A stretch of DNA of 64,000 bases, from the NCBI RefSeq assembly GCF_000373365.1, contig NZ_KB891181.1, positions 1 to 64,000 of the forward strand, in the 5' to 3' direction. This DNA is from Parafrankia discariae. Its GTDB lineage: Bacteria > Actinomycetota > Actinomycetes > Frankiales > Frankiaceae. Each line of letters begins with the position of its first letter. Position 1 is the first letter of the stretch. Positions 34,154 through 42,598 of this stretch are shown in pieces. A program made the position numbers and the translations under genes. Under the pieces are notes generated by a model. That model was not told the DNA's origin, did not search any database, and saw only the letters and a list, made by a program, of their open reading frames with translations.

Positions 34154-36487
34154 TCACTGGCCGCCGGGGCCGCCACTGCCGCCGGCTCCGGCTCCGGCTC
34201 CGGCGCCGGCGCCGAACAGCTCCAGGTACCGCTGCGCGGCCAGCGGGTTCAGCGGCGGGTCGATCAGCGAGGAACGCACGTTGTCCGTCTCGGCGGTGCT
34301 GAAATACGCCTCGTAGGCGAGGATGTCCCGGTTCCGGTCGAACAGGTCGTGCATCTTCTCGACGAACAGCGGATTGTCGCCGCCGCCGTTCCCGTCCACC
34401 CGGACGAGCCCCCACTCGGGCACCGCGAACTGCTTGCCGTGCGCCCGCGCGAACGCGGCCACCGTGCACGCCCCCGACGGGACGTCGCACTGCTGGTCGA
34501 AGGTCTCCGCGGAACGCGACGGCGGGTAGGAGTCGTAGGCGTCGCTGCTGACGATGTTCACGAACTCGTCGCCCGGGTAGGCCGCCCACACGTCGTCCCC
34601 GTTGGGCATCCGGTCCCGGTGCGCGCTGACGTTGAAGTCGATCCGCACCGCCGGCGCCGTCGACCGGATCTGGGTCACCGCCCGCTGGAAACAGGTCTTC
34701 CAGGTCGCGGTGTCCCGCGGATACCACCAGAACCAGTTCCCGTTGAACTCCCAGCCGAGCCGGACGATGGCGTCGGGCCGGCCGTTACGCGTCAGGGTCT
34801 GGCCGAACGCCGCCCAGTAGGCGTCATAGTGACCCCGGGCGCAGGTCCGCTCGTCACCGGAGCGCGGGAACAGCGGCTGGGCGATGGACAGCTGCCCGTT
34901 GTACAGCCCCGGCGGGTAGTCCGACATCGGCCAGTTGTCGTAGGCGATCTGGCTCCAGTCGTTACGCTTGGTGAAGACGACGGCGACGTTCGTCGGCCGC
35001 CCCGTCCACGTCTCCCAGGCCCGGATGTCCAGCGGCGGGTTCCCGTTCGCCCCGGAGGGCCACCGCACCCCCGGCGCGGCCGGCCCGCTCGGGGTCGGTT
35101 CGGGCCGCGGCTGCGCGGGCTGGGCCCCGGGCTCCTCCGCCGTGACCGGGGCCTGACTCGCCGCCGGGCCGGTGGCCGAACGCGGCGAGTCCGGGCCGCC
35201 GGTGAGCGTCACCAGGCCGATCGCGCCGAGCAGGATGACCATCGCGGCGGCGGCGACCCCGAACACTGAGCGGCGACGCCGTCGGCGTGGCCCACCGCGG
35301 CGGGCCGCCCCACCGCGGTGACTACCGCCGCGGTGGCCGTCCTTCCCCCGGCTCCCGGCCCCGGGCTCAGGCCCGGCCGGAACGGGACTCTCGCCGGTGC
35401 TTCCAGCCGAGCTCCCGCCTTCGCTCACGGCGCCGCCCAGGCCGGGGGGGCCGGTCTGAGCCGCTGAGTCGACCCGAGTCGCGGTACTGGTTTGAGTCGC
35501 CGGGCTGGTCCGAACCGCCGGGCTGGCGAGAGTCTTTTCCGGCCGCATCGGCGAGTGCGGCGCCGCGGGGAGCTCATATGGCCGGGTCCGAGCCATCACG
35601 TCCCTGTCCGCACCACTCCCGGCGGGCCCGCCCGTCCCGGCACCGTTCAAGCCGGCGCCGCCGCGACCATCGTCGGCCTCACCGAGACGTTCACCGGCTC
35701 CATCCGTGTCCGCGCCGCCTCCGTAGGCGACTCCGCCTGAAGGTACCGGGTCGGTGCCTGATCCGGACGCGGTCTCCGTCTCGGAGGCGGTGCCCGTCTC
35801 GGAGGCGGTGCCCGTCTCGGAGGCGGTGCCCGTCTCGGAGGTGGTGCCCGTCTCGGAGGTGGTGCCGGCGATCTCGGCGGTGGTGGCCCCGGTGGTGATG
35901 TCCTGAGCGGTGATGACCTCGACGGTGTCGGTCACCACGTCGCCTGGGGCGGCGGCTCTCCGGCTCATGCCGGTCGCCCTGCTTCCGCCCGTGCTCGGGG
36001 CCGAGTCGTTGTTCCGGCCGGGCCCGGCGCTCCGCCCCGGCACGGCAGCTCGACCTGGCCTGGCCGACCGGCCGGACCCGGCCTGTTGACCCGCCGCGGT
36101 CTTGCGCTCTGGCGCGGTCTTGCGCTCTGGCGTGGTCTTGCGCTCTGGTGTGGCCGCCGGGCCTGGCCTGGCCGACCGGCCGGACCCGGCCTGCTGACCC
36201 GTCGCGGTCTTGCGCTCTGGCGTGGTCTTGCGCTCTGGTGCGGCCGCCGGGCCTGGCCTGGCCGACCGGCCTGCTCCGGCCTTCCGGTCTGGGCCGATCT
36301 TCAGGCCTGGGTCGGCTTTCCGGTCTGGGTCGGCCTTCCGGCCCGAGCCGGTGTTCCGGCGTGTGCCGGTGGTTTCCTGGGCGCCGACGTTCTGGTGCGC
36401 GTCGAAACTGTCCCGACCCGCGTCCGCTGTCGGCGGCGCGTTACCTGCTTCGTGCCGTTGCACGTACGTCCCCCATCGAGCCCCCAC
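34154..36487 (-). CDS. GH26-like glycoside hydrolase with long disordered N-terminus and membrane anchor
   Basis: About 777 aa from a GTG at 36487; the true start is uncertain because the first 380 residues are low-complexity. These contain PERKT/QQAGSGRSARPG repeats and SETGTA repeats (coded by 18-bp units at 35776-35865). A membrane segment (FGVAAAAMVILLGAIGLVTLTGG) follows a basic run, then a Pro-rich linker and a catalytic domain of about 300 residues. VRLGWEFNGNWFWW carries the likely acid/base Glu and FAVPEWGLVRVDG the likely nucleophile, as in family 26 mannanase-like enzymes. The domain should face outside the cell. It converges with the nif block and is not part of it. Confidence 0.7.
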   Translation of the reverse strand: MGARWGTYVQRHEAGNAPPTADAGRDSFDAHQNVGAQETTGTRRNTGSGRKADPDRKADPGLKIGPDRKAGAGRSARPGPAAAPERKTTPERKTATGQQAGSGRSARPGPAATPERKTTPERKTAPERKTAAGQQAGSGRSARPGRAAVPGRSAGPGRNNDSAPSTGGSRATGMSRRAAAPGDVVTDTVEVITAQDITTGATTAEIAGTTSETGTTSETGTASETGTASETGTASETETASGSGTDPVPSGGVAYGGGADTDGAGERLGEADDGRGGAGLNGAGTGGPAGSGADRDVMARTRPYELPAAPHSPMRPEKTLASPAVRTSPATQTSTATRVDSAAQTGPPGLGGAVSEGGSSAGSTGESPVPAGPEPGAGSRGKDGHRGGSHRGGAARRGGPRRRRRRSVFGVAAAAMVILLGAIGLVTLTGGPDSPRSATGPAASQAPVTAEEPGAQPAQPRPEPTPSGPAAPGVRWPSGANGNPPLDIRAWETWTGRPTNVAVVFTKRNDWSQIAYDNWPMSDYPPGLYNGQLSIAQPLFPRSGDERTCARGHYDAYWAAFGQTLTRNGRPDAIVRLGWEFNGNWFWWYPRDTATWKTCFQRAVTQIRSTAPAVRIDFNVSAHRDRMPNGDDVWAAYPGDEFVNIVSSDAYDSYPPSRSAETFDQQCDVPSGACTVAAFARAHGKQFAVPEWGLVRVDGNGGGDNPLFVEKMHDLFDRNRDILAYEAYFSTAETDNVRSSLIDPPLNPLAAQRYLELFGAGAGAGAGAGGSGGPGGQ
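35776..35865 (-). repeat. Five tandem 18-bp units coding SETGTA
   Basis: CCGTCTCGGAGGCGGTGC is repeated five times on the plus strand (last two with GTGG for GCGG). On the coding strand this gives the Ser-Glu-Thr-Gly-Thr-Ala/Thr run in the disordered N-terminus of the glycosidase. A second, longer duplication of the same gene lies around 36040-36290. Confidence 0.85.
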
Positions 36488-37635: not shown

Positions 37636-38994
37636 GTGGATGTCTGTGCCATGAAAGCTTGCGGAACGACAGCCGTTTGCGGAGTGACAGCCATGCGGAG
37701 TGCGGAGGTCGACGAGGGTGGTGCGAGCCCGGTCGAGTCGTCGGATCAGGAGGGAGTGTTCGAAGCACGGGTGCGTGCGCTGCTGGCGGGGATCGGCGCG
37801 GCCGTGCGGTCGATCGCGGCGGGGAACGCGGATCTGTTGACGCTGTTGGCGCAGTTCGCCAGCCTGCGGCCCCCGACAGCGGGCGGGGAGGTTCTGTTCG
37901 AGGAGTTCGCGCCGGAGGAGGTCGCGGCGGTGCTGGGGGTGTCTCCGCAGTCCGCGGCGAGTCAGCTGCTGTTCGCGTGCACGGTGGCGAGCCGGCTGCC
38001 CCACGCGTTGGAGGCGCTGAGTACCGGCATCTTGGATCTGCAGCGACTGCGCTCCCTGGAGAACGCGGTGCGCCCGTTGGACGACTCGCTCGCGGCGCAG
38101 GTCGAGGCGCGGGTGCTGGCTGGTGGTGCGCGGGTGAACCGGGGGGCGTTCACCGAGGGGTGCCGCCGTGCCGTGCACAGGCTGGACCCGGCCGGGGCGG
38201 CCGAACGGGCACAGGAGCGGAAGAAGGAACGGCGGGTGTGGGTGTCGCCGGGGGAGGACGGGGTCAGTTGCCTGTCCGCGGTGCTGCCGGCCGAGGAGGC
38301 GGCGGCCTGCTACCGGCGGGTTGATCTGATCGCGCAGGGGATCGCCGCGTGCCGGGCTGCCGGGGATTCCCGTAGCCGTGATCAGATCCGCGCGGATGTC
38401 TTGGTCGATCTGCTCTGCGGGCGTGCCGAGCACGCGGTGCCGTTGCCGTGCGAGGTGCAGGTCGTGGTCCCGGTGACGGTCCTGCTGGGGTTGGCGGAGG
38501 AGCCTGGGGAGATCGTCGGATACGGTCCGATTCCCGCCGCAGTGGCCCGGGAGATGGCTGCCCGGCCGGGGTCGACATGGCGGCGGATCCTCACTGATCC
38601 TCAAGGCGCGCTGGTGGAGATCGCCGACCGGCGTTTCCCGACCGCGGCCCAGGCCCGCCACGTCCGGGCGCGAAACCGTGACTGTGTCTTCCCGGGGTGC
38701 GCGCGTACGTCGCAACGTGCCGACATCGATCACACGGTCGCGCACGGATGCGGTGGGCCGACGCTCACCCGGAATCTCGGACCGGTGTGTCGCAAGCACC
38801 ACCGTATGAAACATTCTGGTCGTTGGGAGGTGACCCAGCCGCAGGAAGGGATCTTTGTCTGGAAGGGTCCGTTCGGGGCGACGCTTGTCACCAACCCTCA
38901 CTCATACATCGAACCACAGAAAAGCGCTGGAACGGCGAAAGCGGGCGGCGGTGAATCGTCGGGAAACACCGTGGACCTTTGTCGACCTGGCTGA
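37636..38994 (+). CDS. DUF222 / HNH endonuclease-domain protein (13E12 type)
   Basis: A 452-aa protein with an N-terminal DUF222 helical region (residues about 30-330; FEEFAPEEVAAVLGVSPQSA, GAFTEGCRRAVHRLDP) and a C-terminal HNH nuclease fold: CVFPGCARTSQRADIDHTVA, GGPTLTRNLGPVCRKHHRMK, with C-x4-C, DH-x3-H, N and HH. This is the 13E12 repeat family, abundant in actinobacteria and often near mobile DNA. Its function is unknown. Starts at 37636, 37651 or 37693 are possible; the last has GGAG seven bases upstream. The nuclease residues are complete. Confidence 0.85.
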   Translation: MDVCAMKACGTTAVCGVTAMRSAEVDEGGASPVESSDQEGVFEARVRALLAGIGAAVRSIAAGNADLLTLLAQFASLRPPTAGGEVLFEEFAPEEVAAVLGVSPQSAASQLLFACTVASRLPHALEALSTGILDLQRLRSLENAVRPLDDSLAAQVEARVLAGGARVNRGAFTEGCRRAVHRLDPAGAAERAQERKKERRVWVSPGEDGVSCLSAVLPAEEAAACYRRVDLIAQGIAACRAAGDSRSRDQIRADVLVDLLCGRAEHAVPLPCEVQVVVPVTVLLGLAEEPGEIVGYGPIPAAVAREMAARPGSTWRRILTDPQGALVEIADRRFPTAAQARHVRARNRDCVFPGCARTSQRADIDHTVAHGCGGPTLTRNLGPVCRKHHRMKHSGRWEVTQPQEGIFVWKGPFGATLVTNPHSYIEPQKSAGTAKAGGGESSGNTVDLCRPG

Positions 38995-39033
38995 TCGCGG
39001 CAGTGCGGGCGTTGAGGCCGGGTCTGGGAAGAG

Positions 39034-39256
39034 GTGAAGCTCCTGGTAGACGGGTTGTCGACCGAGACCGCCCTGTCCACCCGCACCCTGTGCTTCCTCA
39101 CCGACCTGCTGAACACCCGCCGCCGCGAACGCGGCACCCGCTGGCGGCGCCTGCCCGTGGACCGCCAAGCCCTGCTCATGCTGGTACACCCGCGCTGCGG
39201 ACACACCTACACCAAGCTCGCCGCCGGCTTCAGGGCCGGGGTCGGCACCGTCTTTA
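39034..39256 (+). pseudogene. Truncated IS5-like transposase, N-terminus only
   Basis: From the GTG at 39034 about 74 codons read like the N-terminal helix-turn-helix of a Tnp4/IS5-type transposase: TRTLCFLTDLLNTRRRERGT, RRLPVDRQALLMLVHPRCGH, TYTKLAAGFRAGVGTVFR. After about 39255 the resemblance stops and there is no DDE domain. The remnant abuts a second broken gene. It shows that an insertion sequence once lay here. Confidence 0.6.
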
Positions 39257-39297
39257 GATCTTTGTGGCGGCAAATACGGTTGCCGTGGGATAGCCGG

Positions 39298-39579
39298 AGG
39301 ACGGACGATCGGCTGGTGATGACCGCCGGCAGCCCCGTGGAGGACGCGGCGGAGCTGTTTGCCCGTGAGCGCCCGACGCCCGTGCCCTGGCTGGAGCGTT
39401 CTCGATCTGTGCCGCAACCTGCTCGGCGATGACGTCGGCTGGCTGGCTCGCCACCGCGATGGGTACCACGGCACTCCTGGGCCTACCCGTACCGGCTCGG
39501 CCAGGTCGCCGCGAGTCAGGGAGACACGGTCACCGTGGACATCGCCGGGCCAGTGACGCGCGCCTGGCATTTCGTCTGA
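39298..39579 (+). pseudogene. Frameshifted remnant of a mycothiol-dependent (maleylpyruvate isomerase-like) protein
   Basis: VEDAAELFARERPTPVP continues in the next frame as GWSVLDLCRNLLGDDVGWLA and RHRDGYHGTP, the N-terminal helix pattern of MDMPI-type proteins. The break is a single extra T at 39388 (CCC-T-GGC). After GTPGP the frame is lost again; a later stretch, YPYRLGQVAASQGDTVTVDI, AGPVTRAWHFV then stop at 39579, looks like a C-terminus. The centre is deleted. The family call is from pattern memory and only fair. Confidence 0.55.
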
Positions 39580-39600
39580 TCGCCGCATTGTCCCTGTCAG

Positions 39601-39782
39601 GTCGAGCATCTCGGGGACGTCGTCGGCGCCGAGCATCACGATGTCCGGGTCCGCGCCCGCCGCCGCGCCCGTCTGTCGGCCTCGGCGAACGAGGCGTGTG
39701 GTCCGGTCAGTGCCGCCCAGACCGGATTGTCCAGGACGTCATCGACCAGCAGGGCGTTCTCCACGGGGTCATCCGTCGTCAC
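39601..39782 (-). pseudogene. Truncated, frameshifted GNAT acetyltransferase N-terminus
   Basis: From a GTG at 39782 the frame reads ALLVDDVLDNPVWAALTGPH then ASFAEADRRARR, a common start of a group of actinobacterial GNAT proteins, and ends at a stop at 39636. The expected continuation, VMLGADDVPEMLDL, is found directly after in another frame, down to about 39601. The rest of the enzyme is missing. The GTG overlaps the P450 stop codon (GTGA), so the intact gene was probably translated with the P450. Confidence 0.6.
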
Positions 39783-41005
39783 CGGTCAATTCTGCGGGGG
39801 GTGAAGGTGATGGGGAGATGCAGGGGCGCCCGGGTGAGCGTCGAATGGAAATGGATGTCGGCGTCCTCGCGGAGGCGGATGTCGTCCATCCGCCGCAGCA
39901 GTTCCTCGAGGGCGATCCGCAGGTTCAGCCGGGCGACGTTCGAGCCGAGGCAGCGGTGCGGCCCGGCGCCGAACGCGAGATGGCGGTTCGGTGAGCGGTC
40001 GACGTCGAAGGCCTTCGGGTTCGGGAACTCGGCGTCGTCGTGGTTGGCCGAGGCCCAGTAGATGAGGACCCGGTCGCCCTTGCTGATCCGCTTTCCGTTC
40101 AGCTCGATGTCCCGGGTGGCGGTCCGGGCGATCGCGATGAACGGCCCGTCGAGGCGCAGCAGCTCCTCCACCCCGGCGGGAATCCGCTCGGGGTGCGCGC
40201 GCAGGTAGGCGGGGATCTCCGGCTGCCGGGTGAAACGCAGCAGCATCAGACCGAGTGCGCCGGCCGTCGTCTCCAGCCCGCCCAGGATGACGAGCTGGAC
40301 GATGCCGACGATCTCCTGCTGGGTGAGCGGTCGGCCCTCGAACTCCGCCTTGAGCAGGGCGTCGACAACGTCACCGCGGGGTGGGCGGGCCCGCCGCCGC
40401 TCGACGAAGTCGTTGATCCACTCGGAGAGCCCGGCCCAGCACTCCTTGCCCTGTGGATCGTTGGGCAGGGAGGCCTTGGACGCGAGGAAGGAGACCTTGT
40501 CGAGATCCTCGGTGGGGGCGTCCAACGCGAACTTGAAGAACGACAGGCTCGGGAAGGGGCGGGCGAAGTCGTCCATGAACTCGCACTCGCCGCGCTCGAT
40601 GAACTCGTCGATGAGGTCGGTGACGAGCGCGCGTGACGGGGCCTCCCAGCCGGCGATCGCCTTCGGCGTGAAGTGCGAGTTGACCAGCCTCTTGTAGACG
40701 CGCTGCTCCGGCGGGTCGACCTCGACCGGGATGTTGCGGACGTGCGTCGTGCTCGGCGGGATCGCCAGGCCGTGGGCGGAGCTGAACGACTCCCAGTCCT
40801 GGGCGACGTCGAGGACGTCCCCGTACTTCGTCACCACCCAGAAGCCACCGTGCTGCCCGGTGTGTGTGACCGGGCATAAGTTCCGCATCCGGTCCATCGT
40901 CTCGGGGAAGACGGCCGCGAGGTCGGTCGAGAGATGGTCGAAGTCCTTCAGGCACCATTCGTCGGGCATCGGGGCGGCGGCGGCTGGCGTGGGCATCTGG
41001 TTCAT
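39779..41005 (-). CDS. Cytochrome P450
   Basis: A 408-aa soluble bacterial P450. The haem-binding motif FGAGPHRCLGSNVAR is intact, the K-helix ExxR is in EELLRL, and the I-helix has LVILGGLETTAGAL, where the usual acid-Thr pair appears as E-T. EVDPPEQRVYKRLVNSHFTP is the usual region before the C-helix. ATG 41005 (MNQMPTPAAAAP) is preferred to a longer GTG start at 41047. The 3Fe-4S ferredoxin at 57013 could donate electrons. It sits at the start of the catabolic island, with an aldehyde dehydrogenase upstream in the same direction. The substrate is unknown. Confidence 0.93.
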   Translation of the reverse strand: MNQMPTPAAAAPMPDEWCLKDFDHLSTDLAAVFPETMDRMRNLCPVTHTGQHGGFWVVTKYGDVLDVAQDWESFSSAHGLAIPPSTTHVRNIPVEVDPPEQRVYKRLVNSHFTPKAIAGWEAPSRALVTDLIDEFIERGECEFMDDFARPFPSLSFFKFALDAPTEDLDKVSFLASKASLPNDPQGKECWAGLSEWINDFVERRRARPPRGDVVDALLKAEFEGRPLTQQEIVGIVQLVILGGLETTAGALGLMLLRFTRQPEIPAYLRAHPERIPAGVEELLRLDGPFIAIARTATRDIELNGKRISKGDRVLIYWASANHDDAEFPNPKAFDVDRSPNRHLAFGAGPHRCLGSNVARLNLRIALEELLRRMDDIRLREDADIHFHSTLTRAPLHLPITFTPRRIDR

Positions 41006-41089: not shown

Positions 41090-42598
41090 TCAGGCCGTGT
41101 CGATCCAGACCGACTTGACGTTGAGGTACTCGTCGAGCGCCTGGTGCCCCATCTCCCGGCCCCAGCCGCTGGCCTTGTAGCCCCCGAAGGGGACGGCGGG
41201 GTCCATGAGGTTGAAGTTGTTCACCCACACCGTGCCGGCCCGCAGGTCGCGGGCCAGCCGGTGGGCCTTGCCGACGTCCCGGGTCCACACCCCGCCGGCC
41301 AGGCCGAACTCGGTGTCGTTGGCGCGGGCCGTCACCTCTTCGACCGAGTCGAAGGGCAGGACGCAGGCGACCGGGCCGAAGATCTCCTCCCGGACCACCC
41401 GCATCCCGTCGTGCACGTCGGTGAGGACGGTGGGTGCGACGAAGTAGCCCCGGGCCAGGTCGTCGGTCTCGACGCGGGCACCGCCGGTCGCGGCGCGCGC
41501 GCCCTCCTCCCGGGAGAGGTCCAGGTAGCCGACGACGCGCTTGAGCTGCTCGGCCGAGACCAGCGGCCCGATCCTGGTCTGCGGGTCGAGGCTGTTGCCG
41601 ACCCGCAGGTTCGCGGCGAACGCGGCGACCCGCTCGACGAACTCGTCGTGGATCGACCGCTCGACGAAGATGCGGGTGCCCGCGCAGCAGATCTGGCCGG
41701 AGTTGGTGAACACCGCCATCGCCGCGCCGGGCACCGCCCGCTCCAGGTCCGCGTCGGCGAAGACCACATCGGGCGACTTGCCGCCCAGCTCCAGGGAGAC
41801 CCGCTTCAGGTTGCCGGCCGCCGCCCGCACGATGTGCCGCCCCGTCGTCGTGGACCCGGTGAAGGCCACCTTGTCGACGTCCGGGTGCGCGGCCAGGGCG
41901 GCGCCCGCCGTCTCGCCGGGGCCGGTCACGATGTTCACCACGCCGGGCGGCAGCCCGACCTCGGTGAGCAGCTCACCGAGCCGCAGCGCGGCCAGGCTGG
42001 CCTCCTCGGCCGGCTTGAGCACCATCGTGCAGCCCGCGGCGAGCACGGGCGCGATCTTCCAGATGGCGTTGCTGACCGGCCGGTTCCAGGGCACGATCGC
42101 GGCGACCACCCCGATCGGCTCCTTGAGCGTGTAGCTGAGGACCTCGCGCGGGATCGAGTTCGGGATGGTCTCGCCGTGGATCTTGGTGACCCAGCCGGCG
42201 AAGTAACGCAGGACGCCGGCCTCCCAGGAGGAGCCCGGCTTCGTACCGGGCCGGCGGCGCCCGATCGGCGCGCCCATGTCGAGCGCTTCGAGTAGCTTCA
42301 GCTCCTCCTGATGTGCCGTGACGGCGTCCGCGAACGCCCAGATCAGGTCCTGCCGTTCGCTGGGGAGCAGGCGCCGCCACGGGCCCTCGAAGGCGGCGCG
42401 GGCCGCGGCGACGGCCCGGTCGACGTCCGCGGCGCCGCCCTCGGCGATCTCGGTCAGCGTCTCGCCGGTGGACGGGTTGATACTGGGAAAGGTCCGGCCG
42501 GAGGCCGCCCCGGTCCATTCGCCGCCGATCAGCAGCCGTCGTGGCCCGCCGTCGAGGAACGGGAGGGCCACCGCGTCGGGGGGCGTGAGTGTCGACAC
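41090..42598 (-). CDS. Aldehyde dehydrogenase (NAD-dependent family), copy 1
   Basis: A 502-aa aldehyde dehydrogenase. The NAD site FTGSTTTGRHIV, the general-base Glu in LELGGKSPDV and the catalytic cysteine in NSGQICCAGTR are present; the C-terminus has VWVNNFNLMDPAVPFGGYK. GTG 42598 is preceded by AGGAG. It probably oxidises an aldehyde formed after the P450 hydroxylation in the next gene, about 85 bases downstream. The substrate is not defined. Confidence 0.93.
   Translation of the reverse strand: MSTLTPPDAVALPFLDGGPRRLLIGGEWTGAASGRTFPSINPSTGETLTEIAEGGAADVDRAVAAARAAFEGPWRRLLPSERQDLIWAFADAVTAHQEELKLLEALDMGAPIGRRRPGTKPGSSWEAGVLRYFAGWVTKIHGETIPNSIPREVLSYTLKEPIGVVAAIVPWNRPVSNAIWKIAPVLAAGCTMVLKPAEEASLAALRLGELLTEVGLPPGVVNIVTGPGETAGAALAAHPDVDKVAFTGSTTTGRHIVRAAAGNLKRVSLELGGKSPDVVFADADLERAVPGAAMAVFTNSGQICCAGTRIFVERSIHDEFVERVAAFAANLRVGNSLDPQTRIGPLVSAEQLKRVVGYLDLSREEGARAATGGARVETDDLARGYFVAPTVLTDVHDGMRVVREEIFGPVACVLPFDSVEEVTARANDTEFGLAGGVWTRDVGKAHRLARDLRAGTVWVNNFNLMDPAVPFGGYKASGWGREMGHQALDEYLNVKSVWIDTA

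Follow-up and report, generated by a model that had tools for sequence, protein, structure and literature searches.

Three gene remnants lie side by side at approximately 38971-39782 in the genome of Parafrankia discariae BCU110501, between two apparently intact genes. We read this locus as a small pseudogene cluster, a variable spot between two conserved blocks, which would have arisen when an IS5-like element entered a DUF222-HNH gene at its 3' end and ordinary deletions then joined the remnants; taken jointly, we give this reading a probability of roughly 0.9. The cluster is real but represents ordinary genomic decay, and intergenic transposase remnants have already been described in Frankia (PMC2770080). 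A sequence-only reading of the window (i.e., the whole 64,000-nucleotide stretch that was analysed, to which all coordinates refer) had proposed three decayed genes here, and the IS, MDMPI-like and GNAT similarities were all found, each with clear ends. That reading did not include a fourth, clipped gene: the comparisons support a DUF222-HNH gene whose native C-terminus appears to have been replaced by the end of the IS.

The window belongs to a draft assembly of 7,891,711 bases in 194 contigs. Parafrankia soli NRRL B-16219 (G003) served as the comparison genome from the same genus, and all gene-breadth counts among the 35 family genomes include the window genome itself. On the upstream side, the conserved block contains a GH26-like gene (34154-36487) and, next to the remnants, the DUF222-HNH gene (37636-38994, plus strand), which forms the conserved 5' flank and matches the DUF222 profile at 81 bits (cut-off 24.4 bits, E 1.3e-22). 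The Pfam scan listed DUF222 only for this gene, and what we take to be its HNH motif was recognised by eye in the translation. The other flank is an intact-looking cytochrome P450 gene (39779-41047, minus strand), which is 94% identical to its P. soli ortholog and has homologs in 26 of the 35 family genomes (E<=1e-60). The downstream block also contains an aldehyde-dehydrogenase-like gene (41090-42598), labelled, like the GH26-like gene, by eye from its translation. Both genes that border the remnants have kept their domains. DNA homology between the P450 gene and P. soli begins at 39794, and the last P450 codons lie within the junction.

The first remnant (38971-39254, plus strand) is what is left of an IS5-like element: its left end and its N-terminal part, without the right part. 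Window positions 38977-39253 share 75% DNA identity with a second copy elsewhere in the genome (E 7.9e-66), and near 38971 the left end looks like the ends of related elements. Homology stops at 39254 when the own-genome copy is used, in good agreement with the earlier claim of a transposase N-terminus that breaks near 39256, and at 39282 when a distant transposase is used. Like IS5-family transposases (NF033581; Pfam HTH_Tnp_4 and DDE_Tnp_4), the piece has a probable N-terminal helix-turn-helix region and a similar left end; unlike them, it has neither the catalytic DDE part nor a right end. The HTH_Tnp_4 match in the open frame 39034-39429 scores 21.8 bits (E 1.5e-4), under the 27-bit cut-off, and the second copy scores 49.4 bits, above it. 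Two scanned relatives fall under the 140-bit cut-off of NF033581, the IS5 model: the second own-genome copy (62.1 bits) and an open-frame relative from G016 (106.8 bits). Since the second copy scores under the model's cut-off, we use the wording "IS5-like".

The only other window match to the distant transposase at E<=1 has an E-value of 0.19, so the DDE catalytic domain is absent from the window, and for this reason we call the piece a remnant and not an IS. The window copy stops within the transposase gene, has no right end and hence no pair of terminal inverted repeats, and relative to its sister copy it is missing 46 bp near 39072/39073. Substitutions between the two copies (24 in 182 aligned bases) fall 10/9/5 on codon positions 1/2/3, which gives no sign of protein-level selection and would be expected if both copies were dead. 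The second copy (G000:C115, locus L015 2114-2758) seems likewise to be internally deleted, with a DDE_Tnp_4 match that spans only profile positions 97-156 of 158. Related transposase starts occur in 8 of the 35 family genomes (E<=1e-5). A search for distant matches found 35 plasmid records, none of which covered 80% of the query, and among the matches listed (8 of the 35) only the IS part matched.

The position of the left end is what points to an insertion. Native DUF222-HNH sequence continues to approximately 38971-38973, and the last codons and stop of the gene come from the left end of the IS. DNA homology stops at 38972 against the syntenic P. soli gene and at 38971 against a P. soli paralog; because the left end of the IS adjoins the point where P. 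soli homology stops, insertion at the 3' end of the DUF222-HNH gene is likely. After the common residues SGNT, there are 14 residues in the syntenic P. soli gene, 38 in the paralog and 7 before the stop in the window. Each of the two P. soli copies carries a frameshift further upstream and gives split matches, so the native tail rests on two loci that are both broken genes, i.e., the junction is supported and the exact tail is less so. Three other DUF222 copies in the window genome lose DNA homology earlier, at 38840, 38855 and 38921.

The second remnant (39257-39496, plus strand) is a piece of the N-terminal domain of an MDMPI-like gene, with a broken frame. It aligns in two blocks with a sequence from another family genome (G031:C156), at 84% DNA identity over 39267-39363 (E 2e-22) and at 87% over 39363-39489 (E 9.5e-40), and weak similarity may begin as early as 39257. 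The G031 relative scores 28.4 bits against MDMPI_N (cut-off 24.2 bits; profile positions 22-71 of 140). The window piece scores 15.3 bits (profile positions 25-73 of 140), short of a complete MDMPI_N domain. It shares the CPGW...LLGDD...HRD region with MDMPI_N (PF11716) proteins; unlike them, the window has a piece of the N-terminal domain only, and in a broken frame. The piece also matches two MDMPI-like proteins (47-54% identity over 28-34 aa). When the MDMPI pieces were compared with all long frames in three loci, many chance matches appeared (E 0.01-10), and of the MDMPI comparisons we therefore used only the matches to the G031 sequence and to these two proteins.

The assignment to an MDMPI-like gene thus stands, with a close relative that itself scores for MDMPI_N. 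The frame was said to be broken by one extra T at 39388, and this can be ruled out because the closest relative has the same bases there, the T included. The frame changes instead through a net loss of ~50 bp between ~39363 and ~39380, which an alignment can show either as a single deletion or as a deletion of slightly greater length plus one inserted base. Substitutions relative to G031 fall at third codon positions in 8 of 12 cases in the second block and in 3 of 5 in the first, which suggests that the gene may have been under selection for much of its divergence and decayed late. The piece occurs in 2 of the 35 family genomes (E<=1e-3). Across 393 genomes of the class, relatives were found in three (E<=1e-8): the window genome, G031 (the source of the query) and G300 (40% identity). 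In these searches no intact ortholog of the piece was found, the G031 relative itself matching only profile positions 22-71. Further along, 39490-39576 (plus strand) is a candidate C-terminal piece of the same MDMPI gene, following the internal deletion that the earlier reading had proposed; it has a weak match (pairwise E 0.008, 27% over 26 aa) at the position that colinearity predicts in one MDMPI-like protein. It has no Pfam match, and besides the window it gave one match in the 35 family genomes (E 0.08), in an ORF that by eye is glycosyltransferase-like.

Where the IS and MDMPI pieces meet, a 132-aa open frame (39034-39432) runs from the transposase helix-turn-helix into the MDMPI start without a change of frame. 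One could imagine a new, expressed chimeric protein, e.g., a small DNA-binding protein of recent origin that was caught between the DUF222-HNH and P450 genes, and the frame does stay open across the junction. Judged on the sequence, we regard both the expressed chimera and the captured DNA-binding protein as barely credible: substitutions in the IS part have no third-position bias, the last part of the frame reads MDMPI sequence out of frame, and the only one of the 34 other family genomes to have both pieces (G031) has them on separate contigs (C156 and C5). It is also unlikely that the three remnants make a working product. We recommend that open frames in 38970-39780 stay unannotated as genes.

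The third remnant is on the minus strand and consists of two colinear pieces of a GNAT gene. The first runs from a GTG at 39782 (39678-39782); the second (39598-39672), for which relatives have short DNA matches, stops before the acetyltransferase domain. In a 501-bp search, the pieces matched a homolog from G008 with E-values of 3.8e-8 and 6.3e-5, and the second piece matched two intact homologs (E 6.3e-5 and 2.0e-4). When the GNAT stretch was shuffled by triplets 200 times as a control, one shuffle reached E<=1e-3, the best value being 6.2e-4. In the G008 homolog, the first piece is equivalent to residues 20-37 and the second to residues 104 to ~128, and BLAST extends the second weakly to 139. 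The FR47 acetyltransferase domain of that homolog comprises residues 147-229, and the remnant has no acetyltransferase domain since its pieces end ahead of the equivalent of this range.

A GNAT start on the minus strand, as the sequence-only reading had it, is therefore confirmed. The same reading placed a frameshift near 39636, and a simple frameshift there is ruled out by an internal loss: ~190 bp are missing between the two pieces near 39651-39681, and the exact place of the break, between 39681/39678 and 39672/39651, varies with the homolog used. In common with the FR47-like GNAT proteins (PF08445) of Frankiaceae, the remnant has the LDNPVWAALTGPHA start and the LGADDVPEMLDL piece; unlike them, it is without the ~190 bp between these pieces and without the acetyltransferase domain. 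Matches to the GNAT start occur in 16 of the 35 family genomes (E<=1e-3).

The corresponding place in P. soli has the order GH26-like gene, DUF222-HNH, short gap, GNAT remnant, Lrp/AsnC, MFS and P450. The GNAT remnant there includes 44 bp that are 95% identical to window 39694-39737, and window 38973-39693, which includes the IS and MDMPI pieces, has no match at the P. soli locus (E<=1e-3). A GNAT remnant at the same spot with no IS match means that the IS is not required for GNAT decay. The P. soli DUF222-HNH gene (G003:C279, locus L071 3150-4409) is frameshifted and lacks the counterpart of approximately 38718-38868 in the window; together with the GNAT remnant and the lack of an IS match, this makes part of the decay independent of the IS. 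By these alignments the spot is variable in both species and has decayed along different routes, two species being too few to root every gain and loss. At the deletion junction in the P. soli DUF222-HNH gene, ~15 bases are matched by both sides. The Lrp/AsnC regulator and MFS transporter genes (G003:C279, locus L071 4602-7389) lie between the P. soli GNAT remnant and the P450 gene, and the pair is absent from the corresponding place in the window. Of the pair, the MFS protein was compared with 6 genomes of the genus; 3 of these have a match at E<=1e-60, and among the matches listed, all those outside the query's own place are 33-35% identical.

Two accounts of how the remnants came together need to be weighed. 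In the one we prefer, the IS5-like element would have entered the DUF222-HNH gene at its 3' end, a step supported by the position of its left end at the limit of homology. Ordinary illegitimate recombination may later have deleted the right part of the IS, along with parts of the MDMPI-like gene and most of the GNAT gene, leaving the stumps side by side; the junctions are the basis for this, and the order of events is our reconstruction from them. In the other account, the IS itself caused the rearrangement, with transposition-linked deletions removing neighbouring DNA and joining unrelated genes. When a transposase drives the deletion of adjacent DNA, the IS normally stays complete and its end marks the junction, whereas here the IS is cut inside the transposase gene and has an internal absence of 46 bp. 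The decay of GNAT and DUF222 at the same spot in P. soli, with no match to the IS piece, also argues against the IS as the cause. On the other side, the left end of the IS does lie at the end of DUF222 homology, and IS elements have been linked to rearrangement and deletion in Frankia (PMC2770080). On balance, we consider rearrangement by the IS unlikely. The earlier suggestion that an IS event had deleted and joined unrelated genes therefore holds for the insertion step and is weaker for the joining: the IS probably landed at the spot, and ordinary deletions probably did the joining.

Some of the frame breaks might be assembly errors, given a draft genome of 194 contigs and G+C-rich sequence. 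We consider this highly unlikely, because tens to hundreds of bases are lost at the breaks, and domains with them, and because the P. soli locus decayed independently.

The closest known parallel comes from Frankia, where intergenic transposase remnants number 21 fragments in CcI3 and 32 in EAN, with 123 pseudogenes in EAN (PMC2770080). The resemblance lies in IS fragments between genes of IS-rich genomes; the differences are that those cases come from other strains and that the BCU110501 locus also has MDMPI and GNAT remnants. The locus has little consequence beyond annotation, where the tail of the DUF222-HNH gene should be noted as IS-derived, and it offers one clear sister-species pair in which the same spot took different decay routes.

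One minor observation concerns the downstream edge, where the GTG with which the GNAT remnant begins shares bases with the stop codon of the P450 gene (39779-39782). The two genes may once have been a coupled pair, or the junction may be due to chance. The 110 bases around and 3' of the P450 end in 13 relatives were compared by eye only. A GNAT match and the best P450 homolog are on one contig in just three genomes: the window genome, G003 and G014 (millions of bases apart).
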